From contig JAHCRE010000013.1 of NCBI GenBank assembly GCA_020148145.1, positions 1 to 43,480 of the forward strand: DNA of 43,480 nucleotides, written 5' to 3'. The stretch is from Patescibacteria group bacterium. Lineage in GTDB: Bacteria > Patescibacteriota > Minisyncoccia > Minisyncoccales > JAHCRE01. The stretch's first letter is position 1. Every line of letters starts with the position of its first letter. Shown here one piece after another: positions 3,698-43,480 of this stretch. The notes beneath the pieces are model-generated. The model saw only the letters and a list, made by a program, of their open reading frames with translations, was not told the DNA's origin and searched no databases. The position numbers and the translations under genes are program-made.

Positions 3698-3952
3698 AAC
3701 CCATATCGGAAGAGGGTCGGTCAAGACGCGAGGCTTCTCCGCGAAACCTGCGAAGCGGGTTGAGTCGGAAAGCCCCGTCTGGGAAACCTTTCGGTTTCCC
3801 CGTATAGGAAAATATTAAAAACCGAAGGGACGCGAGAGTTCTTAGCTCTGCGGAAACTCCCGTCCTAGGGTTTTTAAAGAGCGAGCCCGAAACCCAAAGG
3901 GCGCCAGCCGAAGGCTGGGAGAGGGCGAGCGATCTAAATCTGTAGTACCACT
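3698..3952 (+). repeat. Family A structured GC-rich element, copy 1
   Basis: The core is 3698-3935. The remaining 17 nt up to the pilC ATG also resemble copy 2. It is far richer in GC than its surroundings and has no credible ORF. Helices visible include GGGAAACC/GGTTTCCC at about 3780, a long compound stem with outer arms AAAAACC/GGTTTTT, and CCAGCC/GGCTGG near the end. It lies between the pilB stop and pilC start, so it is probably transcribed with the operon. Function unknown. Confidence 0.9.
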
Positions 3953-25110: not shown

Positions 25111-25366
25111 AACCCAAATCGGAGAGGGGTCGGTCAAGACGCGAGGCTTCTTCGCGAAGCCTGCGAAGCGGATTGAGTCGGAAAGCCCCGCCTGGGAGAA
25201 CCTTCCGGTTCTCCCGTGTAGGAAAATATTAAAAACCGAAGGGACGCGAGAGTTCTTAGCTCTGCGGAAACTCCCGTCCTAGGGTTTTTAAAGAGCGAGC
25301 CCGAAGCCCAAAGGGCGCCAGCCGAAGGCTGGGAGAGGGCGAGCGATCTCTCTATGTATTACTACT
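25111..25366 (+). repeat. Family A structured GC-rich element, copy 2
   Basis: The core 25111-25349 matches copy 1 at about 94-95% (about 13 differences). The hairpin near 25195 is GGGAGAACC/GGTTCTCCC here against GGGAAACC/GGTTTCCC in copy 1, so the two arms change together. The last 17 nt before the ATG at 25367 also resemble those before pilC (TAYYACTATG-like ending), so the element reaches the start codon. Confidence 0.9.
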
Positions 25367-26020
25367 ATGCAAATTATTTGGCATGGTCAATCCTGCTTTC
25401 AAATTATTGCCAGTTTTGGAAAAGGGAATAGAGTAAATATTATCGTTGATCCCTTTTCAGAAGATATTGGATTAAAACTTCCTTCATTGGAAGCTGATAT
25501 TTTACTTGTTAGCCACTATCATCACGATCATGATAATGTTAAGGCAGTAAAGGGCTCGCCATTTTTAATTACAGGGCCTGGCGAATATGAGATAAAAAAT
25601 GTATTTATTCAGGGAATTCCGGCCTTCCACGATGATTCCAAAGGCCGAAAAAGAGGAGAGGTGACAATTTTCACTATTGAAACTGAAGGAATGCGACTTT
25701 GCCACTTAGGAGATATTGGTCAAAGGGAATTGAACCCTGATCAACTTGAGAAAATTGGCCAGATTGATATTTTAATGATTCCTGTAGGGGGAATTTATAC
25801 GATTTCTTCTAAAGAAGCCTCAAAAATAATTTCTCAAATTGAGCCAAAAATTGTTATTCCCATGCACTATCAAGTTCCCAGATTGAATATAAAATTAGAA
25901 AGTTTGGATAAATTTCTAAAGACTATGGGTCAAAAATCAATTGAACCTTTAGTTAAATTATTTGTCAAGGAAAAAAACCTACCCACCGAAGAAATGAAAA
26001 TTGTAATCCTGAAACCATAA
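25367..26020 (+). CDS. Metallo-beta-lactamase fold hydrolase (UPF0173/UlaG-like)
   Basis: The 217-aa protein has the metal-binding HxHxDH motif in SHYHHDHD, further ligands in LCHLGDIGQ and IPMHYQVP, and the ITGPGEYEI segment typical of this small family. It is probably a cytosolic metal-dependent hydrolase; the substrate is unknown. Its ATG is set by the end of a family A element, and it starts a unit with the next membrane protein and gyrA (gaps of 2 and 1 nt). Confidence 0.85.
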   Translation: MQIIWHGQSCFQIIASFGKGNRVNIIVDPFSEDIGLKLPSLEADILLVSHYHHDHDNVKAVKGSPFLITGPGEYEIKNVFIQGIPAFHDDSKGRKRGEVTIFTIETEGMRLCHLGDIGQRELNPDQLEKIGQIDILMIPVGGIYTISSKEASKIISQIEPKIVIPMHYQVPRLNIKLESLDKFLKTMGQKSIEPLVKLFVKEKNLPTEEMKIVILKP

Positions 26021-26344: not shown

Positions 26345-28846
26345 ATGCCAAATAAATCTCAAAAACAAAAAATTGAAATAGGCTATATTAAACCTCGGGA
26401 GATAACAAAAGAGATGGAAGAATCTTATATTGATTATGCAATGTCAGTGATTATCTCCCGGGCCTTACCTGATGTCAGAGATGGGTTAAAGCCAGTCCAT
26501 CGCCGAATTTTATATGCAATGCATGAAATGGGATTAAAACATGACTCGAAATTTAGAAAATCAGCCACAGTAGTTGGATTTTGCCTTGGCCATTACCATC
26601 CCCATGGTGATCAGGCAGTCTATGATGCATTAGCTAGAATGGCTCAAGATTTTTCTTTAAGGTATCCCTTAATTCAAGGTCAGGGAAATTTTGGTTCGAT
26701 TGATAATGACCCTCCGGCCGCCCAACGCTATACAGAATGCAGGCTTTCAAAAATTGGCGAGGAGATGCTTAAAGATATTGGCAAGGATACTGTTGATTTT
26801 GTTGAAAATTACGACGGAACAAGAAAAGAACCAATTGTTTTGCCTTCTCCCCTTCCTCAACTCTTATTAAATGGTTCTCTTGGAATTGCGGTTGGGATGG
26901 CAACTAATATTCCCCCTCATAATCTTTCTGAGGTTTGTGATGCTCTAATTTATTTAATTTCCCACCCCAAAGCTGATACCGAAGACCTTTTCAAATTTAT
27001 TAAAGGCCCAGATTTTCCAACTGGAGGGCAGATTTTTGATCAAAAAGGAATAATTACTGTCTATTCCCAAGGGAAGGGACCAATTGTCATTAGAGGAAAG
27101 GCAGAAGTGATTAAGGCCGAGCGAGGTAAAAGTCAAATTATAATTACTGAAATTCCTTTTCAAGTCCAGAAGTCAACTTTGGTTGAGCAATTCGCCAAGG
27201 TTTATCAGGAAAAAAGGGTTGAAGGGATAAAAGATATTAGAGACGAGTCCGACAAAGAAGGTTTAAGAATTGTTATTGACCTTTCTCGAGATGCCTATCC
27301 CCAGAAGATTTTGAACCAACTTTATAAATTCACTGATCTTCAGAAAACCTTCCATTTAAATATGATAGCTTTGGTTGACGGAATCCAACCTAGGGTTTTA
27401 AATTTGGTAGAAAATTTAAATTATTATCTTTTACATCGAAAAGAAGTAATTTTAAAAAGAACAAAATTTGAATTAGAAAAAGCTAAAAAAAGAGTTCATA
27501 TTTTGAAAGGATTAGCTAAGGCACTTTCAAAAATTGACCAAGTTATTAAAACTATAAAAGCTTCAGCTGATAGAGAACAAGCTCAGAAAAATTTAATAAA
27601 AAGATTTAAATTAACCCTACTTCAGGCCGATGCTATTTTAGAAATGAAACTATCTGCCTTAGCAAGATTAGAAAGAAAAAAAATTCAAGAGGAACTTAAG
27701 GAAACTTTAGTTAGAACCAAAGAGTTCCAAGCCATTCTAAAAAGTCCCAAAAAGATAAAAGAGGTTATCAGAGAGGGGTTAAAGGAAATAAAAGAAAATT
27801 TTGGCGATGAAAGAAAAACAAAAGTTTTTGCTAGAAAGATCGGGGAGATTCCTGAAAAAGACTTAATCCCTATTGAAGAAACAATTATTACTCTGACTCA
27901 GGGTGGTTACATTAAAAGAATAAAGCCGGCTACTTACAAACGTCAAAAAAGAGGAGGAAAGGGAATTTTGGGGATGAAAACCATTGGGGAAGATATTGTT
28001 GAGCATTTTCTAATAGTAAAAACCCACGATTCTTTGTTGTTTTTTACTGACTCGGGAAAGGTTTTTAAAACTCTGGTTTATGAAATTCCCCAAGGAACCA
28101 GGGTAGCCAAGGGCCGAGGACTTCTTAATTTCTTAGAGATTTCTCCCCAAGAAAAGATTTTATCACTAATTTCTTTGGGGAAGAATGATCAAAGTCTGGG
28201 GATAAAATATCTGGTAATGGCGACTAAGGATGGTATAATTAAAAAAACAGCTTTGAAGGATTTTGAAAATATTAGAAAATCAGGACTAATTGCTATCACT
28301 CTTAAAAAAGGAGATACCTTGAGAGGTGTTCAGAAAACAAGTGGTGATAATGAAATTATTTTAGTGACAAAGAAGGGTCAGGCTATAAAATTTAAGGAAA
28401 AAGAAATAAGGTCCATGGGGAGAAGTGCTGCCGGGGTGAAAGGGATAAGATTAAGAAAAGGAGATGAGGTGATAGGGATAGACATAATAAAATCAAAAAT
28501 CAAAAATCTCGTCGCAGGCGAAGCGGACCAAGGGCGGCAAAAATCAAAAATTCTATTGGTGGTGAGTAAAAATGGGTTTGGGAAAAGAACAGATTTAAAA
28601 GAATATCGATTGCAAAAAAGAGGAGGTTCCGGGATAAAGACAGCTAAAATTACTAAAAAAACCGGAAATTTAATTGTTTCAAAGATTCTATTTGGTTTAG
28701 AGGAAGATTTAATTGTTATTTCTCAAAAGGGCCAGGTAATTAGGACTAAAATTGCCTCGATTCCAAAGATTTCCCGAGCCACCCAGGGAGTAAAAATTAT
28801 GAGGCTAGAAGAAGGAGATAAAGTAGCCTCAGCAACTTGTATCTGA
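26345..28846 (+). CDS. gyrA: DNA gyrase subunit A
   Basis: The 833-aa protein cuts and rejoins DNA during supercoiling. The active-site tyrosine is in AAQRYTE, and the GyrA box is KRGGKG (at about 27948), which separates it from ParC. The resistance-determining region reads [15 protein letters not shown], with Gln where E. coli has Ser83. The C-terminal domain carries an in-frame GC-rich insert at 28508-28538. No gyrB is in the window. Confidence 0.96.
28508..28538 (+). repeat. GC-rich in-frame insert in gyrA
   Basis: A 31-bp GC-rich patch is flanked by CAAAAATC-type repeats on both sides and ends CCAAGGGCGGCAAAAAT, a 17-nt match to the insert in valS. It encodes [10 protein letters not shown] between two copies of KSKI. 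Confidence 0.65.
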
Positions 28847-28854
28847 TTCACTTG

Positions 28855-28990
28855 GACCCCTTTCTTCAAAAGACTACAACCCGCCCACCCATTCTCCCAA
28901 GCTTCGCTTGGGCCCCTAGGTGTCCAACCGCCAAAGAAATATAAGGTGTCGTTCGCCCGGGACCTTATAACCCGTGGCTCACGACAGGAT
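28855..28990 (-). repeat. Degenerate family B-like element, reverse orientation
   Basis: The minus strand contains GGGGCCCAAGCGAAGCTTGG followed by GAGAATGGGTGGGCGGG. This lines up with the family B 5' domain GGGGGCCCGCGAAGCGGGAG followed by GGTGGCGGG; the hairpin is lengthened by AA/TT on both arms. A second hairpin TATAAGGT/ACCTTATA lies nearby. The rest of the B element is not recognisable. Confidence 0.5.
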
Positions 28991-28998
28991 CTATAACT

Positions 28999-29526
28999 GT
29001 GGAAAAGGGATTTCTAAATCCAAAAAAAGTTTTAAATCAAATTAAACTAAGGAAAAATATGATTGCTGCTGATTTTGGCTCAGGTTCTGGTGGTTGGGCA
29101 ATACCTTTGGCGAAAAGGTTGAAAGATGGAAAAGTTTTTGCTATTGATATCTTAGAGGAGCCTTTATCGGCCTTAAAAAGTAAAGCCGAAATTGAGAGGA
29201 TTTCAAATATTGAGACAGTTCTCTCTGATGTGGAAAGGGAAAATGGTTCAAAATTAGCTAATAATTTTTTAGACTTGGTTTTAATGACCAATCTTTTATT
29301 TGAGATAGAGGATAAAAAATTAGTAATGTCTGAGGCTAAAAGAGTATTAAAAAAAAGAGGGAAAATTTTGATTGTTGATTGGAAACCTGAGGTTTCTCTA
29401 GGTCCAAAAAAAGGAAGAGTTGCCCTAAAAGATATAAAAAAAATAGCCGAAGACCTTGATTTAAAATTAAAAAAAGAGTTTACAGCTGGGGCTTACCATT
29501 ATGGATTAATATTTTCTAAGCCATAA
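28999..29526 (+). CDS. Class I SAM-dependent methyltransferase
   Basis: The 175-aa protein has the SAM-binding glycine loop DFGSGSGGW (motif I), an acidic residue after the second strand (VFAIDI) and the motif IV/post region LVLMTNLLFEI. The substrate is unknown. The frame begins with GTG 28999. The last nine codons (HYGLIFSKP) are echoed 3' of the adjacent family B element as HYGLIFTRT with a stop. Confidence 0.85.
   Translation: MEKGFLNPKKVLNQIKLRKNMIAADFGSGSGGWAIPLAKRLKDGKVFAIDILEEPLSALKSKAEIERISNIETVLSDVERENGSKLANNFLDLVLMTNLLFEIEDKKLVMSEAKRVLKKRGKILIVDWKPEVSLGPKKGRVALKDIKKIAEDLDLKLKKEFTAGAYHYGLIFSKP
29495..29520 (+). repeat. Left copy of the tail duplication at B copy 1
   Basis: These 26 bp encode the C-terminal HYGLIFSK of the methyltransferase. 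They match 29674-29699 at 22 of the first 24 positions. Confidence 0.85.
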
Positions 29527-29530
29527 TGGC

Positions 29531-29675
29531 ACAGAGGGGGTCGGGGAGATTGGGTAGGGGCCCGCGTCTGAAGCGGGAGGGTGGCGGGTGGGTGGCGCGT
29601 CCCCGTATAGGAAAACAGCGAGCGAATGAAATGAGCGAGAGTTAGAAACCGTGGGTTTCTAAGGAGCAAAGCGAC
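29531..29675 (+). repeat. Family B structured GC-rich element, copy 1
   Basis: It begins ACAGAGGGGGTCGGGG and ends GGAGCAAAGCGAC. Visible helices are CCCGC/GCGGG, TTAGAAACC/GGTTTCTAA, and the end-to-end pair GGTCG/CGACC. It contains the core CCCCGTATAGGAAAA shared with family A. It lies directly after the methyltransferase stop codon. Confidence 0.85.
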
Positions 29676-29705
29676 CATTATGGCTTAATATTTACTAGAA
29701 CTTAG
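29674..29705 (+). repeat. Right copy of the tail duplication at B copy 1
   Basis: It reads CAT TAT GGC TTA ATA TTT, then ACT AGA ACT TAG, encoding HYGLIFTRT and a stop. It begins immediately after the GCGAC end of the element. Confidence 0.8.
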
Positions 29706-29712
29706 TTTATGC

Positions 29713-29718
29713 TAAAAT
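29713..29718 (+). promoter_or_regulatory. -10 candidate of the pilin gene at 29730
   Basis: TAAAAT lies 11 nt before the ATG. A TATAAT at 29721 is also present but only 3 nt from the ATG, probably too close. Confidence 0.4.
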
Positions 29719-29729
29719 AATATAATTTT

Positions 29730-30071
29730 ATGAATCTCCGTCTTAAAAAAACAATTTTCTTTTCATTTCTATTTTTTCTTTTGATGCCCTTATTGGCTGA
29801 AGCGATAGAAATAGAAAATCCTCTTAAATATGATACATTTGAAGAAATAGTAGAGGGGATTATTGATTTTATTTTTGTGATTGCTGTAGCCTTAGTTCCT
29901 TTAATGATTATTGTAGCTGGTTTTTATTTTGTAACCGCAGGTGGTGATCCGGGAAGAATTCGGACTGCCAAGCAGATAATGTTCTGGACAATAATCGGAT
30001 TTGCTATAGTTTTACTTGCCAAAGGACTAATTACTGTGATAAAACAAATACTAGGAGTACCTGAAGGTTAA
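29730..30071 (+). CDS. TrbC/VirB2-like small pilin protein
   Basis: The 113-aa protein has a signal peptide (about residues 1-25, ending LAEAIE) and two membrane helices with a glycine-rich turn (FVTAGGDPGRIRTAKQIM). This layout is that of VirB2/TrbC-type pilins found widely in CPR bacteria. It is the most divergent of three such genes in a row. No other type IV secretion genes are in the window. Confidence 0.75.
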   Translation: MNLRLKKTIFFSFLFFLLMPLLAEAIEIENPLKYDTFEEIVEGIIDFIFVIAVALVPLMIIVAGFYFVTAGGDPGRIRTAKQIMFWTIIGFAIVLLAKGLITVIKQILGVPEG

Positions 30072-30131
30072 AAGTCGAAAAAAGTAAAAAAATAAAGGTC
30101 GAATAAAAACAAAAAATAGAAAATAAAAAAT

Positions 30132-30530
30132 ATGAGTAAAGTCATTTCAGTTCTAGTCTTAGTAAGTCTTTTGACTTTTTTGGTATTGCCAATGGTAGCC
30201 CTAGCCCAGGACACATGTACCTTAGAGGAAGATTTGTCTGATATTCATCCAGATTGTACAGCAGGTTCAGAAGTAGACCTAGATACGTATGGGATGTGTT
30301 GTTTAGTGAATTCAATCTATGTTGTTACTAAATGGTTAACCTTTATTATAGGGGGTGTTGTTGGGCTTATGATAATTGCCGGAGCATTTATGATTGTAAC
30401 AGCAGGTGGTAATCCAGAGAAAGTGACCTCTGGAAGAAATCTTATTTTGTATGCAGTAATAGGTATGGTAGTTGCCCTTTTTGCCAGGGCTATTCCAGCC
30501 ATTGCAAAGGCAATTCTAGGAATAGGATAA
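30132..30530 (+). CDS. VirB2-like small pilin protein, paralogue 1
   Basis: The 132-aa protein has a signal peptide ending in ALAQ, a mature N-terminus with four cysteines (DTC, PDC, MCC) and two helices around VTAGGNPEKVTSGRN. It is closely related to the next gene, including long stretches of identical DNA. The cysteines suggest disulfides or a metal site outside the cell. Confidence 0.75.
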   Translation: MSKVISVLVLVSLLTFLVLPMVALAQDTCTLEEDLSDIHPDCTAGSEVDLDTYGMCCLVNSIYVVTKWLTFIIGGVVGLMIIAGAFMIVTAGGNPEKVTSGRNLILYAVIGMVVALFARAIPAIAKAILGIG

Positions 30531-30642
30531 AATTAGAGGATAGAGATAGAAAAATTAGTAAGATTTTGACCTTCTGTTCGGAAAGAACGAGAGATTTTGA
30601 TTAAATTTAAACTATAGAGAGGGTTGAGTAAAAATAAAAAAT

Positions 30643-31032
30643 ATGAACAAAATTATTTCGGTTTTAGCTCTGGTAGGTCTTTTAGTTTTGCCAATGGTAG
30701 CCCTAGCCCAAGATACATGTCACTTAGAGGAAGATTTGACCGAGATTGACCCGACCTGTACAAGCGGTTCAGACGTAGATCTAGATACGTATGGGATGTG
30801 TTGTTTAGTGAATTCAATCTATATTCTTACTAAATGGCTAACTTTTATTATAGGGGGTGTTGTTGGGCTTATGATAATTGCCGGAGCATTTTTGCTTGTG
30901 ACGGCAGGTGGAGCACCTGATAAGGTAAGCACTGGGAGAAATTATATTTTGTATGCAGTAATAGGTATGGTAGTTGCCCTTTTTGCCAGGGCTATTCCAG
31001 CCATTGCCAAAAGGCTAGTAGGAATATACTAG
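30643..31032 (+). CDS. VirB2-like small pilin protein, paralogue 2
   Basis: The 129-aa protein has the same layout as its upstream neighbour: signal peptide, four cysteines, two helices. The centre (TYGMCCLVNSIY and FIIGGVVGLMIIAGAF) is almost identical, while the N-terminal loop and C-terminus differ. The 3' flanks of the two genes also match in part (CGGAAAGAAC), so the duplication included the downstream region. A strong terminator follows. Confidence 0.75.
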   Translation: MNKIISVLALVGLLVLPMVALAQDTCHLEEDLTEIDPTCTSGSDVDLDTYGMCCLVNSIYILTKWLTFIIGGVVGLMIIAGAFLLVTAGGAPDKVSTGRNYILYAVIGMVVALFARAIPAIAKRLVGIY

Positions 31033-31090
31033 TAGGATTGAAAGTTGGAGGAGATTTTCTTATCGGAAAGAACAATAGTGATTTCAATTT

Positions 31091-31121
31091 AATCAACCCC
31101 GCCAGGCGGGGTTGATTTTTT
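31091..31121 (+). terminator. Strong terminator of the pilin genes
   Basis: AATCAACCCCGCC and GGCGGGGTTGATT form a perfect 13-bp stem followed by a T run. Confidence 0.93.
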
Positions 31122-31149
31122 GATTTTAAAAAGATAAGATAATTAAGAT

Positions 31150-31183
31150 GTCCTTGTGGCAGAACTGAAATACGCATCCCCAA
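31150..31183 (+). pseudogene. tRNA-Leu 5'-half remnant
   Basis: GTCCTTGTGGCAGAACTGAA followed by ATACGC resembles the 5' half of the intact tRNA-Leu starting 40 nt downstream, including the typical Leu D arm. The anticodon arm and 3' half are missing. Confidence 0.5.
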
Positions 31184-31189
31184 CTTTTT

Positions 31190-31271
31190 GTCCCTGTGGT
31201 GAAATTGGTACACACGTGTGGTTTAGGACCACATCCCGAGAGGGTTGCAGGTTCGAATCCTGCCAGGGACA
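31190..31271 (+). tRNA. tRNA-Leu(TAG)
   Basis: Class II tRNA. The acceptor GTCCCTG pairs with CAGGGAC and TGTGG/CCACA encloses TTTAGGA (TAG). CCA is not encoded. Confidence 0.95.
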
Positions 31272-31272
31272 C

Positions 31273-31305
31273 AAAAAACCGCTGCCTCAAACACAGCGGT
31301 TTTTT
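31273..31305. terminator. Bidirectional terminator
   Basis: AAAAAACCGCTG and CAGCGGTTTTTT pair around a 9-nt loop between tRNA-Leu and the convergent hsp20 gene. Confidence 0.9.
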
Positions 31306-31328
31306 GATAAATCAGTTAATGATTAATT

Positions 31329-31802
31329 TTAGCCTTTTACTACTATCTTTCTTTTCCTCTCCTTTTCAATCTTTGGTATTTTTATAGTTAAAATTCCTTT
31401 TTCCATTGAGGCTTCAGCTCTTGAGGGGTCAACTTCCACTGGTAAGATGATTTCTCTAGAAAACGGTCCCCAATAACATTCCTGATAAAAATAATTTTGC
31501 TTAACTTCCTCAGCTGGTTTTTCTCTATTTCCTTTTATCATCAATACATCATTTTCTATTGAAATATCCAAATCTTCAGATTCTACTCCCGCAATAGCAG
31601 ATTGAATAACAAGATTATCGTCTGTTTGGTAAACATCAACTGCCAATTGCCCTTTTGCTTTAAGCCACTTTTCTTTTGATTTCTCAACTTTTTTTGGTTC
31701 TTCTTCTACTTCTAACTTTTTAACTTTTTCTGACTCTTTTTTTATTTTTTCTTCAACTTCCATTTCCCCTTCCTTTTTTAATTTTTCAAAAAAAGACACC
31801 AT
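31329..31802 (-). CDS. Hsp20 small heat-shock protein
   Basis: The protein (157 aa from ATG 31802) has a charged N-terminal region (about 50 residues, mostly Lys and Glu) and an alpha-crystallin domain: LAVDVYQTDDNLVIQSAIAG, DISIENDVLMIKG and the GILTIKIPK strand. It is a chaperone that holds unfolded proteins. An in-frame GTG at 31823 lies inside prsW, so the ATG after the prsW stop was chosen. Confidence 0.88.
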   Translation of the reverse strand: MVSFFEKLKKEGEMEVEEKIKKESEKVKKLEVEEEPKKVEKSKEKWLKAKGQLAVDVYQTDDNLVIQSAIAGVESEDLDISIENDVLMIKGNREKPAEEVKQNYFYQECYWGPFSREIILPVEVDPSRAEASMEKGILTIKIPKIEKERKRKIVVKG

Positions 31803-31806
31803 ATTA

Positions 31807-32517
31807 TTAAATTTTACAGACACTGGCCATTTTCTCTAGTTTTTTAAAACCTAAAGAAACAAATAGGGCTAGTCCAATTAAAATGATTATTGGTATTATT
31901 AATCTTAAATTTCCTTCTATTACTATTATAGAAAAATTATAAAGCCCATGCAAGATTATAGCTAGCCCTAAGCCTTGAGCAATTAATTTGCCCTGACTTT
32001 TTGTTTCAAAAAAAGACAGGGCAAGAAAATAACCTATCAGCCCTGAGGAAAGAGCATGTAAAAATGTGGCAGAAATAAAACGGAAAGAGGCTAAGACTAA
32101 AGTTTCCTCAAGGGGTAAAAAAAATATTTTCGGAGACAAAAAAATTAAGATATTTTCTAGGGCGGCAAAGCCCAAAGCTGAAATTATCATATAAAGCATA
32201 GCATCTAATGGTTCATCAAATTCTGGATTAGACACCACTTTTTCTTTAACTACTAAATATTTTAAAATTTCTTCTACTAAGGCAATTCCGATAAAGAAAT
32301 TTAAGACTTGAATCAAAATTGGGGAAAGATTCAATTTTAAAAATCCTTTTAAAATTACCATTTCAATAAAAACTGCTGGTATAGCCACTAACATCCCATA
32401 AAAGAAAATTTTTAAAATCATTCTCTTGGACTCAGGGTGAACATCTTTTCTTAAAAAAAATAAAAGCCAGATAATACTGGGTAAAAGACCAAAGATAAGA
32501 TAAAGAGGATAATTCAT
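31807..32517 (-). CDS. PrsW-like intramembrane metalloprotease
   Basis: The 236-aa protein has about seven membrane helices and the family motifs VEEILKYLVV (EExxK), FRFISATFLHALSSGLIGY and ILHGLYN, with histidines and glutamates that would bind zinc. PrsW in Bacillus starts the cleavage of an anti-sigma factor; the target here is unknown. Its start is 2 nt from the valS stop, so the two are co-transcribed with hsp20. Confidence 0.85.
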   Translation of the reverse strand: MNYPLYLIFGLLPSIIWLLFFLRKDVHPESKRMILKIFFYGMLVAIPAVFIEMVILKGFLKLNLSPILIQVLNFFIGIALVEEILKYLVVKEKVVSNPEFDEPLDAMLYMIISALGFAALENILIFLSPKIFFLPLEETLVLASFRFISATFLHALSSGLIGYFLALSFFETKSQGKLIAQGLGLAIILHGLYNFSIIVIEGNLRLIIPIIILIGLALFVSLGFKKLEKMASVCKI

Positions 32518-32518
32518 A

Positions 32519-34681
32519 TTAGCAAATTACGCGTTGGGGCCATTCTTCAATCATTAAACATTTCTTTTTATTTTTCAATAATAATTTCTGGTAAATTTCT
32601 TCAGTTATAAAAGGTATAAAAGGGTGTAAAAGTTTCAAAGAATTTAATAAAACATAAAGTAAAATTTTTTCGGTCTCTTTTTGACATTTAATATTTGACA
32701 TTTGATATTTACTTTTTTCAATATATTCATCGCAAAAATCATGCCAGAAAAAATTGTAAAGTTTATGGCTGGCCTGACCAAAAAGAAAATTTTCTAAATC
32801 TTTGTTAATCGATTTTATTGTTTTATTTAATGCTTTTAATATTCTTTTATCAGCCTGGGTAAATTTTCTTTTATTTAATTTTTTAATCTCGATTTGTATT
32901 TTTGCTTTTTTATTTTTGCCGCCCTTGGCGAGCCTCCCGCCGAAGGCGAGGTTCGCCCGAGGCGACGCCTCTGGCGGGATTTTTGACTCCAAGATTTGTT
33001 GCAAGATAAATCTCGCGGCGTTCCAGATTTTATTACAGAATTTTTTTCCCATTATTATATTATCTTCAATAAATCGAATATCCTGACCTCCCATGACTTG
33101 CCAGATTATTCCGAATCGGGTGGCATCAGCCCCATATTTTTCAATAAGATTTATTGGATCAATCCCAGTACCAAGGGATTTTGACATTCTTTTCCCTCCT
33201 TTGGTTAAGACGGTGGGATGAATATAGACTGTTTTAAAAGGATTTTTTTTCATAAATTCCATTCCAGAAAAAATCATTCTAGCCACCCAAAGATTAAGAA
33301 TATCCCGGCCAGTACTTAAAACATCGGTTGGATAAAATTTCTTAAGATCTTTTGTTTTTTTGGGCCAACCAAGGGTAGCGAATGGCCAGAGGGCTGAAGA
33401 GAACCAAGTATCTAAAACATCATTTTCACCTTTAATCGGGATTTTATGTCCCCACCAGATTTGCCGAGATATACACCAATCTTTTATATTTTTCAACCAG
33501 TCAAAATAGACCTTCTTCCATCTTTTTGGATGAAATTTTATTTTACCAGTTTTTACAGCTCCAGTTGCGAGTTTTGCCAGACCTTTCATTTTTAAAAACC
33601 ATTGATCAGAAGGAATTAACTCAATTTTGGTATTGCATCGATAACAGCGTGGAATTTGATGGACATAATCTTCAATTTTCTTCAAGAGACCTTGATTTTT
33701 TAAATTTTCAACAACTTTTTTTCTGGCCTCGAGAATAGTTAATCCTTGATAGGGAAGAGGAGCTTCTTTTGTGATTTGACCTTTTTCATTAATAACCTGT
33801 CGAATTTCTAAATTATGACGCAATCTGATTTCAAAATCTTTTAGATCATGGGCAGGAGTAACCTTAACTGCTCCAGTTCCAAATTTTGGATCAACTAGCG
33901 AATCTTTAATAATAGGAACTTCTCTATTGGTTAAGGGCAAAATTGCTTTTTTCCCAATAAAATTTTTATATCTCTCATCTTTTGGATTTACAGCCACCGC
34001 CGTATCTCCTAACATGGTTTCTGGCCTAGTGGTGGCAATAACAATATAGGATTTAGTTTTTAGCGGATAGCGAATATACCAGAGTTTCCCTTTTTCTTCT
34101 TTATATTCTAACTCAAGATTTGACAAAGAAGTCCCACATCTTTTGCACCAATTTATAACTCTTTTCCCCTGATAAATCCAGCCTTTTTTAAAATAATGTA
34201 AAAAAGCCCTTTTTACTGCTTGGCAATAATTCTTATCCATAGTAAATCTAGTTCTTGACCAGTCACAACTAGAACCTAGCTTTTTTAATTGGTCTAAAAT
34301 AATATTTCCATATTTTTCTTTCCAACACCTTGCTCTTTTAATAAATAATTCTCGCCCTAAATCAAATCGAGTTTTACCTTCTTTTTTTAATTCTCTTTCA
34401 ACTACGTTTTGAGTAGCAATCCCGGCATGATCTGTTCCCGGGAGCCATAGAGTTTTAAAACCTCGAAGACGTTGCCAGCGAATTAAAATATCCTGAACCG
34501 TTGCATTTAGGGCATGGCCCATATGAAGGGTACCTGTAATATTCGGTGGAGGAATCAAAATGGTGTATGGTTTTTTATGCCGAGGAGGTAATTTATCAGG
34601 ATTAAAAAAACCTGACCTTTGCCAGAGATTATAAATTCTTTCTTCAACTTTTTTAGGATTGTAAACTTTTGAGAGTTTCAT
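32519..34681 (-). CDS. valS: Valine-tRNA ligase
   Basis: The 720-aa protein charges tRNA-Val. The HIGH motif is HMGHA and the KMSKS motif is RMSKS. The editing domain follows the Rossmann fold (TTRPETMLGDTAV, GTGAVKVTPAHD). It is shorter than E. coli ValRS: the segment between WWGHKIP and DVLDTWFSS is nearly absent and the C-terminal coiled-coil arm is not seen. A GC-rich in-frame insert (32918-32979) and an AT-rich repeat (KYQMSNIKCQ) interrupt the anticodon-binding region. Confidence 0.96.
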   Translation of the reverse strand: MKLSKVYNPKKVEERIYNLWQRSGFFNPDKLPPRHKKPYTILIPPPNITGTLHMGHALNATVQDILIRWQRLRGFKTLWLPGTDHAGIATQNVVERELKKEGKTRFDLGRELFIKRARCWKEKYGNIILDQLKKLGSSCDWSRTRFTMDKNYCQAVKRAFLHYFKKGWIYQGKRVINWCKRCGTSLSNLELEYKEEKGKLWYIRYPLKTKSYIVIATTRPETMLGDTAVAVNPKDERYKNFIGKKAILPLTNREVPIIKDSLVDPKFGTGAVKVTPAHDLKDFEIRLRHNLEIRQVINEKGQITKEAPLPYQGLTILEARKKVVENLKNQGLLKKIEDYVHQIPRCYRCNTKIELIPSDQWFLKMKGLAKLATGAVKTGKIKFHPKRWKKVYFDWLKNIKDWCISRQIWWGHKIPIKGENDVLDTWFSSALWPFATLGWPKKTKDLKKFYPTDVLSTGRDILNLWVARMIFSGMEFMKKNPFKTVYIHPTVLTKGGKRMSKSLGTGIDPINLIEKYGADATRFGIIWQVMGGQDIRFIEDNIIMGKKFCNKIWNAARFILQQILESKIPPEASPRANLAFGGRLAKGGKNKKAKIQIEIKKLNKRKFTQADKRILKALNKTIKSINKDLENFLFGQASHKLYNFFWHDFCDEYIEKSKYQMSNIKCQKETEKILLYVLLNSLKLLHPFIPFITEEIYQKLLLKNKKKCLMIEEWPQRVIC
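32918..32979 (-). repeat. GC-rich in-frame insert in valS
   Basis: A 62-bp GC-rich patch in AT-rich DNA encodes PPEASPRANLAFGGRLAKGG. It has complementary ends (CCGCC/GGCGG) and is flanked by CAAAAAT on both sides. Its 3' end CCAAGGGCGGCAAAAAT is identical to that of the gyrA insert. Confidence 0.7.
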
Positions 34682-34690
34682 CTTAGGTTT

Positions 34691-34696
34691 ATTTTA
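34691..34696 (-). promoter_or_regulatory. -10 box of the valS-prsW-hsp20 operon
   Basis: TAAAAT on the minus strand ends 9 nt before the valS ATG. Confidence 0.5.
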
Positions 34697-34705
34697 ACAT
34701 AACAT

Positions 34706-35914
34706 TTAGTTTATTCTCAGGTTTGCTTTAACTTTAATTTCTCGCCAAGTTCTCTTTTTTCCTTTTAGCAAATGGCAATAGGCAGTTATTCCTGTCATTA
34801 CCGCATTATCAGTGCAGTATTTAGTATCAGGTATCAAGCATTTGGTATTTGGCAAATTTTTCTTAATAATTTTTTGGAATTGTTTGCGCAATTCTTCGTT
34901 AGCAGTAACCCCACCGCCAAGCATTATAGTTTTTACTTTATATTCTTTAGCTGCCCTGAGAGTTTTTCTAATTAAGACATCAATTATTGCCTGTTGGGTT
35001 TCAGCACACATTTTTCGGATATATTTTTTTGACCTCTGGGTTTTTTCAGATTGACTTTTAAAATTATATAAAACTGCCGTTTTTAAACCAGAGAAGCTGA
35101 AGTCATAATCTTTAGAATTAATCATCGGTCTTGGTAACTTAATTCGGTTATTGGTCATTGGGGTGGGGGATTTCCATTGCTTGGCAATCTGGGCAATAGC
35201 TGGCCCTCCGGGGTAGCCAAGCCCTAAAATTCTGGCTACTTTGTCAAAGCATTCTCCAGCCGCATCATCCCTTGTCTCGCCTAAAATTTTGTATTTTCCA
35301 AAACCTTTCATTAAAATCAGCTGAGTGTGTCCGCCACTTACCACTAAACAAACCGCAGGAAAAATATTTTTGAGATTTGAGATTTGCCACCTGAGATTTG
35401 AGCTAACTGGTGGAAGCCAGTTAGCGAGGATGTGAGCCTCAATATGATTAATTGGTAAAATTTTTAATCCCCAGAAATAAGCTAGGGCCTTGGCAAAGTT
35501 TACTCCTACCCACAGACAAGGTTCTAGTCCTGGCCCAATTGTTATCGTAATTAAATCAATTTTTGGTTTTTTATAATCCCTTAAAAATTTTTTTAATTTT
35601 TCAAAAAGATATTCTTCTCGCTCCAAAATTTTTTCTAAATTTTTAATTCTAAGTTTATTTTTTACTTTTTGATTTTTGATATTTGATTTTAGTAATCTCG
35701 ATTCCATTAAGACCTGTTTTAATACTGGAACAAGATTGTGCTGATGTTCTCGTTTAGCCAAACTTGGATAGACTCCCCCCCACTTTCTGTGAATTTTTAC
35801 TTGGGACGAGACAATATTGGATAAAATTTTAAAGCGAAGCCTTTTTTTTCCTAAAGCTAAAATTAAAGCAATACAAGTATCGTCACAGGATGTCTCAATT
35901 GCTAAAATAATCAT
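34706..35914 (-). CDS. tsaD: tRNA threonylcarbamoyladenosine synthase subunit TsaD
   Basis: The protein (402 aa from ATG 35914) makes the universal t6A37 modification of ANN-decoding tRNAs. Motifs are MIILAIETSCDDT, GGVYPSLAKREHQHN, the metal site HIEAH, and the glycine-rich VVSGGHTQL and MLGGGVTANEEL. It is longer than the usual 340 aa because of two AT-rich insertions (around LLKSNIKNQKVKNKLRIKN and SNLRWQISNLKN); a third repeat-like tract at 34823-34858 encodes NTKCLIPDTKYC. An upstream in-frame start at 35953 adds only a lysine-rich tail. Confidence 0.94.
   Translation of the reverse strand: MIILAIETSCDDTCIALILALGKKRLRFKILSNIVSSQVKIHRKWGGVYPSLAKREHQHNLVPVLKQVLMESRLLKSNIKNQKVKNKLRIKNLEKILEREEYLFEKLKKFLRDYKKPKIDLITITIGPGLEPCLWVGVNFAKALAYFWGLKILPINHIEAHILANWLPPVSSNLRWQISNLKNIFPAVCLVVSGGHTQLILMKGFGKYKILGETRDDAAGECFDKVARILGLGYPGGPAIAQIAKQWKSPTPMTNNRIKLPRPMINSKDYDFSFSGLKTAVLYNFKSQSEKTQRSKKYIRKMCAETQQAIIDVLIRKTLRAAKEYKVKTIMLGGGVTANEELRKQFQKIIKKNLPNTKCLIPDTKYCTDNAVMTGITAYCHLLKGKKRTWREIKVKANLRIN
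35365..35405 (-). repeat. AT-rich repeat inside tsaD
   Basis: The tract is built from repeated GAGATTTG units (plus strand) and encodes SNLRWQISNLKN. A related tract lies at 35655-35705 and a similar one in valS at 32690-32720. Confidence 0.55.
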
Positions 35915-35983
35915 ATATATACCTATCTTAAATTTTTCCTTGCCTTTTTTCAATCTTTTTGCTAAATTTAATTTAGCAAAAAA

Positions 35984-36149
35984 ACAGAGGGGGGTCGGGG
36001 GAACTGGGTGGGGGCCCGCGAAGCGGGAGGGTGGCGGGTGGGTGGCGTCCCCCGCATAGGAAGACAGGGAGGAGTGAAGCGACGACTGCCAGAAACCGAG
36101 GGTGTCTGGGGAACGGTGTTAGTGGAGCAAAGCGACGCGTACCGCGACC
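35984..36149 (+). repeat. Family B structured GC-rich element, copy 2
   Basis: It has the same 5' domain (GGGGGGTCGGGG, CCCGCGAAGCGGG) and the hairpin CCAGA/TCTGG, but the right end is longer and repeats GCGAC twice. The flanks show no clear tail duplication, so it may be an older copy. It lies between the divergent tsaD start and the tRNA block. Confidence 0.8.
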
Positions 36150-36174
36150 TTTGAGTTAAAATTTTAAAGGGAAT

Positions 36175-36205
36175 GGTGCCATCGTCTAGTGGCTAGGACA
36201 AGGGG
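36175..36205 (+). tRNA. 5' half of an interrupted tRNA
   Basis: GGTGCCA, TC, then the D arm GTCTAGTGGCTAGGAC, A26 and AGGGG (27-31) are in exact tRNA register. The acceptor and anticodon strands pair with the 3' half at 36327-36360. The D arm is of the Gln/Glu type. The decoded amino acid cannot be told because the loop is interrupted. Confidence 0.7.
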
Positions 36206-36234
36206 CTTTTTTAACCCTGCATCAATCTTTGACT

Positions 36235-36306
36235 GGCCTCGTCATCTAGTGGTTAGGATACGACTCCTTCAAAGTCGAAATACGGGTTCGACTCCCGTCG
36301 AGGCCA
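36235..36306 (+). tRNA. tRNA-Glu(TTC), nested inside the interrupted tRNA
   Basis: The acceptor GGCCTCG pairs with CGAGGCC, CGACT/AGTCG encloses CCTTCAA (TTC), and the T arm ACGGG/CCCGT is intact. CCA is not encoded. Confidence 0.95.
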
Positions 36307-36326
36307 TAAATTTGGTGCGGGGCAAG

Positions 36327-36360
36327 TCCCTAAACACGGGTTCGATTCCCGTTGGCGCCA
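36327..36360 (+). tRNA. 3' half of an interrupted tRNA
   Basis: TCCCT (39-43) pairs with AGGGG of the 5' half. A 4-nt variable region (AAAC), the T arm ACGGG/CCCGT and the acceptor TGGCGCC with A73 follow. TGGCGCC pairs fully with GGTGCCA at 36175, with one G-T pair. Confidence 0.7.
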
Positions 36361-36385
36361 TAGAGATTTTTCAGAGCTCAGCTCT

Positions 36386-36391
36386 GATAAT
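36386..36391 (+). promoter_or_regulatory. -10 box of the glycosyltransferase gene
   Basis: GATAAT ends 8 nt before the ATG at 36400. A small palindrome AGAGC/GCTCT precedes it. Confidence 0.5.
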
Positions 36392-36399
36392 TTTTATTA

Positions 36400-37953
36400 A
36401 TGGAAGAAGATTATTATCTTAAAGTTAATCGGGCCTCTGATTTAAAGGATTCAAAAGAAAGGGCGCTTTTTAGGTTTTTTGAGATTTTTCCAGGATTGAT
36501 ATCCTGGGGAACATTAATTTTAGTAATTATTCTCTCCTGGCAGAAACCTTTTTTTGTTGCTATTTTTATTATTTTTTTCGTGATATACTGGTTTTTCCGA
36601 ACAATTTATCTTTCCTTTCACCTTCGATCTGGGTTTAAAAGAATGAAAGAGCACGAGAATACCAATTGGCTAGAGAGACTTAATCAACTGAAAAATAGAA
36701 ATTGGAAAAATATTTATCATTTGATCATTTTCCCAATGTATAAAGAGCCTCTGGAAATTGCTAGGGAGACTTTTAGAGCCTTAGAAAATACTGATTATCC
36801 TAAGGATAAAATGATTGTGGTTTTAGCTTGTGAAGAAAGAGCAGGGGAGAAAGCAAAAAAAACAGCTAAAATTATTGAAAAAGAATTTGGAAAAAAATTT
36901 TTTAAATTCTTAATCACTTTTCATCCAGCAAATTTACCAGGAGAAATTGCTGGTAAGGGTTCAAACGAAGCCTGGGCGGCAAAAAGGGTAAAAGAGCTTT
37001 TAATAGATCCTCTAAAAATTCCCTATCGAAATATCATTTTTTCTTCTTTTGATACTGATACCTGTGTTTTCCCGAAATATTTTAGTTGTTTAACCTATCA
37101 TTATTTAACCTTAAAGAGGCCCGCTAGAACCAGTTTTCAACCTGTCCCCCTTTTCATTAATAATATCTGGCAGGCCCCTAGTATTTCTCGAATTTTTTCT
37201 TTCTCCTCAACTTTCTGGCATACTATGAACCAAGAAAGGCCAGAAAAACTGATTACTTTTTCTTCCCATTCAATGAGTTTTAAAACTCTAGTTGATGTTG
37301 ATTTTAAACAAAAAAATGTTGTTTCAGACGATTCAAGAATTTTTTGGCAGTGCTTTCTGAAATATGATGGAGATTATAATGTTCAACCTCTCTATTATCC
37401 AGTTTCAATGGATGCTAATGTAGCCAAAAGTTTTTGGAGAACATTAATTAACATTTATAAACAACAAAGGAGATGGTCTTATGGAGTAGGGGATATACCC
37501 TATTTTCTTTTTGGCTTTTTTAAAAATAAAAAAATCCCAATATCCAAAAAATTTTCTCTGGGATTTGAGTCAATTGAGGGTCACTGGTCTTGGGCCACTG
37601 CCTCTATTTTAATCTTTCTCTTGGGGTGGCTACCTTTGATTTTAGGGGGAGAAGAGTTTTCCCAAACCTTAATTTCTTATAACTTACCAATAATAACAAG
37701 AAATATCTTGACCATAACTATGATAGGTTTAGTAGGTTCTGCTTATTTTAGTCTCCTTTTACTTCCTCCTCGGCCACCCAAATATGGTCGGTTTAAATTC
37801 TTGATTTTAATCTTCCAATGGTTGTTCCTGCCCTTGACTATGATATTTTTTAGTTCCCTTCCAGCCTTAGATGCTCAGACCAGGTGGATGTTAGGGAAAT
37901 ACATGGGTTTTTGGCCGACCGAGAAAATCCGAAAGAATTTCGAAGGAGGCTAA
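36400..37953 (+). CDS. Membrane glycosyltransferase, family 2
   Basis: The 517-aa protein has two N-terminal membrane helices (about residues 32-68), a cytosolic GT-A domain and three or four C-terminal helices (from about residue 395). Catalytic features are SSFDTDTC (DxD), the acid in VVSDDSR and QQRRW, the motif of cellulose-synthase-like enzymes that add sugars to a growing chain at the membrane. The product is unknown. Its C-terminal FWPTEKIRKNFEGG is echoed as FWPTEKIRQ with a stop after the following family B element. Confidence 0.85.
   Translation: MEEDYYLKVNRASDLKDSKERALFRFFEIFPGLISWGTLILVIILSWQKPFFVAIFIIFFVIYWFFRTIYLSFHLRSGFKRMKEHENTNWLERLNQLKNRNWKNIYHLIIFPMYKEPLEIARETFRALENTDYPKDKMIVVLACEERAGEKAKKTAKIIEKEFGKKFFKFLITFHPANLPGEIAGKGSNEAWAAKRVKELLIDPLKIPYRNIIFSSFDTDTCVFPKYFSCLTYHYLTLKRPARTSFQPVPLFINNIWQAPSISRIFSFSSTFWHTMNQERPEKLITFSSHSMSFKTLVDVDFKQKNVVSDDSRIFWQCFLKYDGDYNVQPLYYPVSMDANVAKSFWRTLINIYKQQRRWSYGVGDIPYFLFGFFKNKKIPISKKFSLGFESIEGHWSWATASILIFLLGWLPLILGGEEFSQTLISYNLPIITRNILTITMIGLVGSAYFSLLLLPPRPPKYGRFKFLILIFQWLFLPLTMIFFSSLPALDAQTRWMLGKYMGFWPTEKIRKNFEGG
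37909..37934 (+). repeat. Left copy of the tail duplication at B copy 3
   Basis: These bases encode FWPTEKIRK at the end of the glycosyltransferase and match 38110-38135 at 23 of 26 positions. Confidence 0.85.
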
Positions 37954-37957
37954 AAAC

Positions 37958-38109
37958 CAGAAAGGGGGTCGGGGGAACTGGGCAGGGACCCGCGAAGCGG
38001 GAGGGTGGTGGGTGGGTGGCGTCCCCCGTGTAGGAAAACAGCGACTCTCCGAAGCCTTAGCGAAGGATGAAAGCGCCAGAAACCGTGGGTGTCTGGGGAG
38101 CGAAGCGAC
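37958..38109 (+). repeat. Family B structured GC-rich element, copy 3
   Basis: It has GGGGGTCGGGG, CCCGCGAAGCGGG, the core CCCCGTGTAGGAAAACAG, the hairpin CCAGAAACC/GGTGTCTGG and the end GGAGCGAAGCGAC. It starts just after the glycosyltransferase stop codon. Confidence 0.85.
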
Positions 38110-38139
38110 TTTTGGCCGACTGAGAAAATTCGACAATAA
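38110..38139 (+). repeat. Right copy of the tail duplication at B copy 3
   Basis: Directly after GCGAC the sequence reads TTT TGG CCG ACT GAG AAA, then ATT CGA CAA TAA, encoding FWPTEKIRQ and a stop. Two of the differences from the left copy are synonymous (ACC/ACT, ATC/ATT). Confidence 0.85.
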
Positions 38140-38140
38140 T

Positions 38141-40276
38141 CTATTCCAGGTGGACCCTTTTTTGAACCCTCTTTAATTTCTCCCTCAGTAGGGGATATTT
38201 TTTTAACCCTGGATCTTTTCTTAAGATTTCCTTTGCTGCCTCTCGGGCTTTTTCGACTAAAAGTATATCTTTTAAAGAATCCATAGCCAGATCAGGAATT
38301 CCCCATTGTCTTGTTCCAAAAAAATCACCTGGGCCCCGAATTTTTAAATCTTTCTCAGCTAGCTCAAAACCATTCTCTGAGGATACTAGGGCTTTTAATC
38401 TCAAATTTGTTTTTTTAGCCGGTGAATCAGTAAACAAAAAACAAAAAGATTGATATTTAGATCTTCCTACTCTTCCCCTAAATTGGTGAAGTTGGGCTAG
38501 GCCAAATCTTTCGGCTCCTTCAATCATCATTACTGTGGCATTAGGAACATCAATTCCTACTTCAATTACCGAAGTTGAAACTAGAATATCAATTTTTTTA
38601 TTTTTAAAATCTAACATTTGCTTTTCTTTCTCTTTAGTTTTCATTCTTCCATGTAACATCCTCACTTTTAAATCGGGAAAGACTTTTTTTGATAATTTTT
38701 CATATTCTTCCTTAACTGCCTTTACCTCTGCCCAACCCAAAATCTCTTCTTTTGATTTTCGATTTCCCTCTGTAGATTTTTGATTTGGTTCAATTCTTGG
38801 ACAGATTACAAAAACTTGTCTTCCCTTTTTGATTTCTGATCGAATAAAATCATAGGCTCCTTTTCGATTGGCCGGAGCCACAACTTTAGTAACTATTTTT
38901 TTTCTTCCTTTAGGTAATTCATCAATTATTGATAAATCTAAATCTCCATAAATAGTTAAAGCTAAGGTTCTAGGAATAGGGGTGGCAGTCATTGATAATA
39001 AATGGGGAATAAGTTTTTTCCCTGAATCTTGACAGAGGCGAGCTCTTTGCTCAACTCCGAATCGATGTTGCTCATCTAAAATTACTAGAGCTAAATTTCC
39101 AAATTTTACTTTTTCCTGAATTAAGGCATGGGTACCAATTAAAATATCAATATTTCCTTTTACTACTTTCTCTAAAAGTTTCTTTCGAGAAATTTTTAAT
39201 ACTTCTCTCTTTGCTTTTTTTGAGATAATTTTACTTTCTTTACCGGTCAAAAAACCGATATTTAAATTAAAATCTCTTAAAGTCTTAGAAATTTCCTGAA
39301 AATGTTGTTTAGCTAGAATCTCAGTTGGACACATCATGGCTATTTGATAGCCAGCTTTTGTTGTATTCAAGGCGGCCATAACCGCTACCACTGTTTTACC
39401 CGAGCTGACATCGCCCTCTAAAAGCCTGTTCATTGGTCGAGACCTTTCCAAATCCTTTAAAATCTGCCAGACTGATTTTTTTTGGGCATTTGTTAATTTA
39501 AAAGGCAAGGCCTTAGTGAAATCCTGAATTAATTCAATGTTTAAGGGTATAGGTAAAGAATTTCTCTGGGAAATTTTTACTCTCTCTCTTAAAACCAAAA
39601 GAGAAATAAAAAATAGCTCCTCAAAAGAGAATCGCTGTCGGGCCTTTTTCGCTAATTTTAAGGAATTAGGAAAATGAATTTGCCAGATTGCCTGCTCGAT
39701 GGGGAAAAGTTGATACTGTTTTCTTATTTTCTCAGGCAACGGATCAGGAATTTTATTTTGAAATTTAATTAAAAGAGGTCTTAGAATCCACCTTAGCCAC
39801 CTGGAAGATAATCCCTCAGTTTCTGGATAAACTGGAACAATTCTTCCGGTGTGAATTAAGTCAGCCTTTTTGCTAATTTTTTCATAAGTTGGATTTGATA
39901 AATAGATCCCTTTATCTCCCAAGACCACTTTCCCTGCCAAACAAACAAAACCTTTTGGCTTTAAAACTTTTATTAAATAAGGTTGATTAAACCAGACTAC
40001 CTTTATTGCTCCGGATTCATCTTCAATAATAGCCTGAGTTAAAATCATTCTTTTTTTCCAGGTTCTGGTATTTTCTATTTCTAGAATTTTCCCCTGAATG
40101 CAGCAGGTTTCATTAAGTTTTACTTTGGCAATAGGAATTATTTTTGAAAAATCCTCATAACGATGAGGAAAGTGAAAAAGAAGGTCGTCAATTGTTTTAA
40201 TTCCCAATTTCTTCAACCTCTTTTGGTATCTAGGACCTACTCGAGGCAGACTCTCAATTGGAGTAGAAAGATTCAT
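38141..40276 (-). CDS. recG: ATP-dependent DNA helicase RecG
   Basis: The protein (711 aa from ATG 40276) remodels stalled replication forks. The N-terminal wedge/OB domain (about residues 60-160) is followed by helicase motifs: Walker A (LLEGDVSSGKTVVA), DEQH (ILDEQHRFG), SMTATPIPRTLAL, and the C-terminal HQFRGRVGRS and GPGDFFGTRQWG. The open frame extends upstream through tRNA-Arg, which is not coding. Its ATG is 41 nt downstream of the tRNA. Confidence 0.95.
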   Translation of the reverse strand: MNLSTPIESLPRVGPRYQKRLKKLGIKTIDDLLFHFPHRYEDFSKIIPIAKVKLNETCCIQGKILEIENTRTWKKRMILTQAIIEDESGAIKVVWFNQPYLIKVLKPKGFVCLAGKVVLGDKGIYLSNPTYEKISKKADLIHTGRIVPVYPETEGLSSRWLRWILRPLLIKFQNKIPDPLPEKIRKQYQLFPIEQAIWQIHFPNSLKLAKKARQRFSFEELFFISLLVLRERVKISQRNSLPIPLNIELIQDFTKALPFKLTNAQKKSVWQILKDLERSRPMNRLLEGDVSSGKTVVAVMAALNTTKAGYQIAMMCPTEILAKQHFQEISKTLRDFNLNIGFLTGKESKIISKKAKREVLKISRKKLLEKVVKGNIDILIGTHALIQEKVKFGNLALVILDEQHRFGVEQRARLCQDSGKKLIPHLLSMTATPIPRTLALTIYGDLDLSIIDELPKGRKKIVTKVVAPANRKGAYDFIRSEIKKGRQVFVICPRIEPNQKSTEGNRKSKEEILGWAEVKAVKEEYEKLSKKVFPDLKVRMLHGRMKTKEKEKQMLDFKNKKIDILVSTSVIEVGIDVPNATVMMIEGAERFGLAQLHQFRGRVGRSKYQSFCFLFTDSPAKKTNLRLKALVSSENGFELAEKDLKIRGPGDFFGTRQWGIPDLAMDSLKDILLVEKAREAAKEILRKDPGLKKYPLLREKLKRVQKRVHLE

Positions 40277-43355: not shown

Positions 43356-43480
43356 TCGGAGAGGGGTCGGTCAAGACGCGAGGCTTCTCCGCGAAGCCTG
43401 CGAAGCGGATTGAGTCGGAAAGCCCCGTCTGGGAAACCATTCGGTTCTCCCGTATAGGAAAATATTAAGAACCGAAGGGA
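43354..43480 (+). repeat. Family A structured GC-rich element, copy 3 (cut by window edge)
   Basis: The visible 127 nt match copies 1 and 2 from AATCGGAGAGGGGTCGGTC onward, including GGGAAACC/GGTTCTCCC and the core CCCGTATAGGAAAATATTA. The first bases overlap the TAA stop of the second pilM. Confidence 0.88.

Follow-up and report, generated by a model that had tools for sequence, protein, structure and literature searches.

Why should a gene be followed, on the far side of a short GC-rich element, by a second version of its own last codons? The question is raised by a class I SAM methyltransferase gene (named relatives: a Patescibacteria MAG, 63%; a Candidatus Nealsonbacteria MAG, 48%) on contig 13 of the draft genome G000 (809,197 bases), within the 43,480-nucleotide stretch of DNA that was analysed as a whole and is referred to as the window. 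The initial annotation had described tails reading HYGLIFSKP-stop and HYGLIFTRT-stop on either side of a 145-bp element, and the open reading frames and coordinates bear this out (Table 1). The two tails share 22 of 24 bases (29495–29518 compared to 29674–29697), and their differences are those described, a synonymous GGA/GGC and a TCT/ACT (Ser/Thr), followed by AAG/AGA (Lys/Arg). The second tail, HYGLIFTRT-stop, is encoded by CATTATGGCTTAATATTTACTAGAACTTAG (29676–29705) and ends 24 bases before a T4SS pilin gene. A further component had gone unmentioned: the nine bases before the element are the reverse complement of the start of the tail, and this arm, CCATAATGG, includes the stop codon of the working gene (TAA, 29524–29526). 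The nonamer that opens the left copy, CCATTATGG, also opens the right copy immediately past the element (29675–29683), giving the layout X-Y-X^rc-B-X'-Y', in which XY is the gene end, X^rc the reverse complement of X, B the element and X'-Y' the second gene end. The best ungapped score between the left and right flanks was 18, compared to a maximum of 16 over 1,800 swapped flank pairings.

Table 1. Coordinates of the two duplicated tails in the window and of the features around them.
Feature	Position	Strand	Evidence or remark
Methyltransferase locus			
Class I SAM methyltransferase gene, 175 aa, working copy, ends HYGLIFSKP-stop	28999–29526	+	ORF; Pfam Methyltransf_31, E 1.1e-14
Left tail copy, 24 nt	29495–29518	+	left-right score 18 vs null maximum 16
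X = CCATTATGG, opens left copy	29496–29504	+	
X^rc = CCATAATGG, reverse complement of X	29521–29529	+	DNA fold shows hairpin
Element body B, 145 bp, GC-rich, CACAGAGGGGGTCGGGG to GCAAAGCGA	29530–29674	+	DNA search; covariance model R1
Four G-tracts GGGAGGGTGGCGGGTGGG inside nested short repeat (about 29555–29597)	29575–29592	+	
Conserved hairpin TTAGAAACC-GTG-GGTTTCTAA	29642–29662	+	helix 2: 94.4% of cells paired; both-side changes in 2/9 pairs
Right tail copy, 24 nt, begins at the element's GCGA end	29674–29697	+	flank comparison
Right tail X'-Y', (C)HYGLIFTRT-stop, read as stranded native gene end	29675–29705	+	resembles tail of element-free G020 (FTKD-stop)
Next gene, T4SS pilin	29730–30071	+	Pfam
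Tail of the 517-aa gene			
Left copy TTTTGGCCGACCGAGAAAATCCGA, tail of 517-aa gene (36400–37953)	37909–37932	+	score 18
X^rc GGCTAAAAACC, partner GGTTTTTGGCC	37948–37958	+	one mismatch
Element body B, second case	37959–38109	+	DNA search; covariance model
Right copy TTTTGGCCGACTGAGAAAATTCGA, reads FWPTEKIRQ-stop	38110–38133	+	

The arrangement is repeated once more in the window, at a 517-aa gene whose tail reads FWPTEKIRK... to the left of the element and FWPTEKIRQ-stop to its right. Beyond the window, a DNA search returned 26 matches in G000, and a covariance model (R1) built from 10 copies of the B core returned 27 at E 0.01 or better. Matches to R1 occurred in 20 of the 60 genomes searched, G000 included, and in a wider sample of the phylum five of 286 genomes were matched at 1e-6, all from the same class. 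The element begins with CA(C/G)A..GGGG and ends with GCGA(C), and its core hairpin is backed by compensatory changes (covariation score 0.253 compared to 0.108 in shuffled alignments, 0/500). RNA folding energies of the two window copies revealed no excess stability (z = -0.23 and +1.15, with G-quadruplexes outside of the model); values of -3.19 (L088) and -2.90 (L089) were obtained for folded stretches that start in the element and run into the right-hand DNA. No Rfam family was matched on B in the window at positions 28000–40000 (E up to 1) or in 11 loci (E up to 0.1; the L10 leader match at L063 lies outside of B), and B was not found in phages, plasmids, or viral contigs by two pattern searches and blastn. 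The four G-tracts GGGAGGGTGGCGGGTGGG, judged from their sequence, may confer G-quadruplex potential, and the short repeat that holds them is also found alone elsewhere.

Several related observations accompany the family. The short repeat (~40 bp; AGGGGCCCGC-loop-GCGGGAGGGTGGTGGGTGGGTTGGAGTCC, with four G-tracts) is nested in many B elements, and at L042, L048, L049 and L050 of G000 it lies inside apparent conserved-gene frames that stay open. Circularly permuted B elements, with the first-stem strand GGGGTCGGGG after the last hairpin, were seen at L136, L137, L140, L141, L142, L146, L149 and L151, and would fit a circular intermediate. Within the window, a GC-rich stretch between two AAAAATCAAAAAT repeats lies inside gyrA with the frame open (28495–28551), another GC-rich element, in which the core of the short repeat is reversed, directly follows gyrA (28847–28995), and a B element at 35984–36200 has a near-perfect hairpin, TTTTTTGCTAAATTTAATTTAGCAAAAAA, at its left and an apparent broken tRNA 5' part at its right, followed by an intact tRNA (36235–36306). 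A separate repeat family of 126–172 bp, with weak matches to the B model, occurs at 3705–3956, 25118–25370 and 43355–43480, and two neighboring pilin genes (30132–31032) are tandem duplicates (DNA 86% identical over 300 nt).

The left and right flanks of each copy were compared with swapped flanks. From 104 model matches, 18 were dropped (repeats in overlapping loci, two in L118, and six weak matches at E 5e-5 or worse); of the remaining 86, one was a duplicate and 13 lacked a recognizable left core (permuted or at contig ends), leaving 72 copies. Duplicated tails did occur at other B elements, with 13 of the 72, including the two described in the window, exceeding the maximum of the 1,800 swapped pairings, and most B-type copies had no right copy detectable by the flank comparison. 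The duplications are 15 to about 93 nt in length, and the targets are mostly gene 3' tails, sometimes a gene start or a tRNA 3' end. Clear cases, with the names of the protein genes read from translations, include gapdh of G000 (L087), fusA of G023 (its tails do not differ over the 75 nt that run to the stop codon), a probable PBP-type gene of G039 and L066, among others, as well as tRNA-Arg and tRNA-His of G021 and tRNA-His of G042 (L072). At the S15-like gene of G000 (L096) it is the gene start that is duplicated and the element is reversed relative to the gene; the duplication at rpmJ of G039 (L069) is clear by eye, the scored stretch having been cut short.

The inverted arm has its own distribution. 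A related ‘leader’ subtype (..ATCGGAAGGGGGTCGGGG...GGGCGAGCGATTAACTTTGTATTACCACT-ATG) is located directly before start codons (L099 and L101–L106 in G000; L063, L082, L083, L085, and others in relatives), had no Rfam match in the copies scanned, and may act as a promoter module or as a structured 5' leader. This subtype, which as a group lacks both arm and duplication, served as an internal control. For 15 of the 41 B-type copies and one of the 31 leader copies, X^rc matched its own left flank above the control 99% point, and for seven and one of them, respectively, its own right flank did so, a split that counts L087 as leader and L100 as B-type, both misfiled; L087 was the sole leader-filed copy above the control maximum in the left-right test. 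In the clear cases the boundaries of X^rc and X' agree within a few bases, and in G001 the pairing between X and X^rc is no longer complete.

Which of the two ends belonged to the gene originally can be addressed where relatives lack the element. The fusA of G060, a genome of the same genus as G023 (protein 93% identical in the searched part), has a single tail and no element, and by eye the DNA downstream of its stop codon can be aligned to that following the right tail in G023; this is an empty site. The methyltransferase was compared among 26 homologues. Three of these (G000, G001 and G002) have the element, and in the 23 that lack it no second tail was scored (the sole pattern match, L013, is unrelated by eye). 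The right tails read FTRT-stop (G000) and FTKL-stop (G001 and G002, the right half in G002 being read from another contig), compared to FTKD-stop in element-free G020, and the left tails read FSKP-stop (G000 and G002) and FIKP-stop (G001). At gapdh the right tail, EFAEFIGKKL, with an F common to many relatives and a terminator-like hairpin after it, gives a weak indication, as no genome of the same genus is available to polarize it. Taken from these alignments, the right-hand end looks like the native gene end and the left-hand end like the newcomer. Of the original proposal that the element inserted near the 3' end and duplicated the tail, insertion with a duplicated tail is upheld by the recurring layout and the fusA empty site, and the right tail looks like the resident copy, not the new one. 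As the element occupies the same methyltransferase site in three genomes, this insertion is probably old.

A direct indication that sequence beside the element can be foreign comes from gyrA of G002. Its stranded start is identical at 54 of 60 positions to the intact start of G001, a genome of the same genus, and its working start, MKEKNKTMEIGYVKPREIT, at 36 of 54. Identity between the G002 and G001 genes is 76.5% in the 135 codons beside the element and 88.0% beyond (up to codon 600), while the pair G001–G000, from different genera, is flat across the same two parts (76.8% and 76.9%). The change point for G002–G001 falls at codon 123 and was reached by none of 2,000 permutations; the control pair G000–G001 has a weaker change point at codon 398 (1/500) in the opposite direction, so gyrA does vary in rate along its length, though not on the side of the element. 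The drop in identity and the change point together indicate that one side of the element is occupied by a foreign start and a foreign gyrA tract of about 400 bp, and that native DNA begins immediately on the other. By these sequence comparisons, the working end of this mosaic gene is foreign and its stranded start native, an argument limited by the element being circularly permuted here (GGGGTCGGG segment last) with no X^rc arm seen. A second check for import, at murC of G002, found no match in G001.

The two copies also differ in a manner that retains their coding sense. Across 11 coding pairs, left and right copies differ by 36.0 changes per 110.3 synonymous sites and 30.0 per 450.7 non-synonymous sites (pN/pS = 0.20); 30 or fewer non-synonymous changes have P = 0.00023 under a ratio of 0.5, near the expectation if one copy had drifted freely. 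Two pairs are contrary (L088, pS = 0.22, pN = 0.18; L086, a single change, non-synonymous), and the methyltransferase pair of the window is neutral with respect to constraint (2.0 per 4.8 synonymous sites compared to 2.0 per 19.2 non-synonymous sites). The second tail had been termed ‘re-coded’, and the preservation of coding sense holds, though the pairs are better read as two functional copies that diverged before they met. Differences between tails first appear at a distance from the end adjoining the element (Fisher p = 4.6e-9, an optimistic value because the end points were chosen by the author and detection favors exact runs).

On balance, it appears probable that the Patescibacteria harbor in B a small mobile element, non-coding, that spreads by homing with one-sided co-conversion and arrives joined to a replacement gene end; that its layout is found at further genes and again in related species suggests a mobile element of a kind little known so far. 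A resident allele would be broken just before X, after which the gene-body side would be repaired by copying a donor allele that bears the element (gene body, X, Y, X^rc and B) and the other broken side, starting at X, would be rejoined unchanged. The product would consist of a donor gene-body tract, the donor X-Y, X^rc and B, then the resident X-Y without a tract, and the resident end would remain stranded, its first base directly adjoining the element's far end. We infer the break, the enzyme that would make it, a role for X^rc and, at the methyltransferase locus, the import of the left tail, the evidence for import being that of the one locus, gyrA of G002. The tRNA genes of G021 bear on what may move. 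The tRNA-Arg(CCT) gene carries a tandem array (L124:1130–1620) of two identical units of 163 bp, each made of tRNA 3' end, flank, X^rc and B, plus a partial third, so that X, Y, flank, X^rc and B behave as a unit. Units of the same composition, at least two in tandem, were also seen at tRNA-Glu (L118), where the contig ends. The arm itself may be a guide, or the fold-back product of a single-stranded end, an origin that would explain why X^rc and X' have approximately the same stopping base. That B and its arm (7–19 nt) act as RNA scaffold and guide, pairing with X of an empty allele so that a nuclease cuts before X and donor repair installs the element and the replacement end, seems doubtful; it draws on a G021 element type with the arm GAACCC(C) that is found at tRNA genes for His, Arg(CCT), Arg(TCT) and Glu, which have the T-arm sequence GGGTTCG or GGTTCG in common. 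A right copy was looked for at tRNA-Arg(TCT) and none was found.

The duplication could instead have arisen in place, a reading that we regard as possible, if less than likely. B, or X^rc-B, would insert after a nick before X and a second nick 25–105 bp downstream, XY would be copied locally with both copies drifting afterwards, and the single-stranded XY end would fold back on X and be extended to the 5' limit of X, giving X^rc. The variable length of the duplication, the boundaries of X^rc and X', which in clear cases lie at most a few bases apart, and the local flanks carried by the tRNA repeat units of G021 all agree with such an origin, as does the identity of the G023 fusA copies over 75 nt, which is equally compatible with local duplication and with an import out of the same lineage. 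It is opposed by the foreign gyrA sequence adjoining the element in G002, by the low pN/pS between copies, and by the lack of a match to reverse transcriptase (PF00078) or Y1 transposase (PF01797) in the carriers G000 and G021; the former was likewise unmatched in the carriers G022 and G023, all four being draft genomes. Over the 60 genomes, the presence of Y1_Tnp, RVT_1 and Phage_integrase does not track B, and no nuclease, integrase or transposase was tied to the element in the searches for these three families.

A minicircle of X, Y, X^rc and B, integrated by a tyrosine recombinase with the crossover in X as for integrative elements at the 3' ends of tRNA and other genes, would place a replacement gene end on one side and a stranded native end on the other, and would accommodate the T-arm targets and the tandem units of G021. 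This is nevertheless improbable, given that X is different at every gene, leaving no fixed core site, that the foreign gyrA tract reaches about 400 bp past X, and that tyrosine recombinase (PF00589) is represented by a single protein in most of the 60 genomes, including the carriers G021, G023 and G002, and by none in the carrier G030. The initial annotation had also offered removal of the element, at the level of DNA or RNA, such that the right tail provides an alternative C-terminus. Both tails of G000 are in frame relative to X, and a deletion from X to X' would restore the native gene. The second methyltransferase tail, however, stays open in G000 only: the right tails of G001 and G002, which keep the element, have an in-frame stop (CAT-TAG), so the right tail is not needed there. 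With no splicing or other RNA family matched and no excised state seen, removal is very unlikely. Least credible of all is an ordinary small palindromic repeat beside chance similarity or an assembly artefact; contigs of G000 and its relatives do break inside such repeats (G002, C13/C21), but the layout recurs across many genes and genomes with its own pairings above swapped pairings, and the fusA empty site contradicts it.

In the literature searched at the level of titles and abstracts, no earlier description of the layout X-Y-X^rc-B-X-Y was found, and homing with a replacement gene end overlaps in part with several known systems. Integrative elements, including prophages, ICEs, and SGI1 at trmE, insert at the 3' ends of tRNA and protein genes, and B resembles them in placing an element-borne replacement end on the working gene, stranding the native end on the far side, and using tRNA T-arms as targets. 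It differs in being 145 bp without genes or a tied recombinase (carriers of B had no integrase beyond the single PF00589 protein in G021, G023 and G002), in a target that differs for each gene, in using gene starts as well, and in carrying the reverse complement of the target. Rickettsia palindromic elements sit within reading frames, as does the short repeat nested in the B family, whereas B itself occupies gene ends and has a duplicated end beside it. Target-primed retroelements such as R2 and SINEs produce target duplications of variable length that are defined at one side, as are those of B, but the hosts of B are bacteria and the four carriers searched had no reverse transcriptase match. 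Homing introns leave co-converted tracts in the flanking exon (PMC5378118). They and inteins are like B in targeting conserved genes and in having foreign sequence in the host gene adjacent to the insertion, while B lies outside of the reading frame, is not removed, replaces a whole gene end, and has no internal endonuclease gene. MITE, ERIC, RUP, and BOX repeats (PMC2229807 and PMC3049150) are similarly short, structured, intergenic, and present in dozens of copies; compared to these, B has no fixed terminal inverted repeat or fixed short target duplication. The inverted arms outside of B instead differ between copies, each matching its target gene.

If this interpretation is correct, a 145-bp non-coding element swaps gene starts, gene tails, and tRNA ends, with the old end persisting as a fossil. 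Because the stranded ends date and polarize the events, horizontal exchange at fusA, gyrA, gapdh, and tRNA genes would become directly readable. The inverted arm, derived from the target at each insertion, would hint at an unrecognized insertion mechanism, and minimal bacterial genomes could gain foreign gene ends without the loss of the gene.
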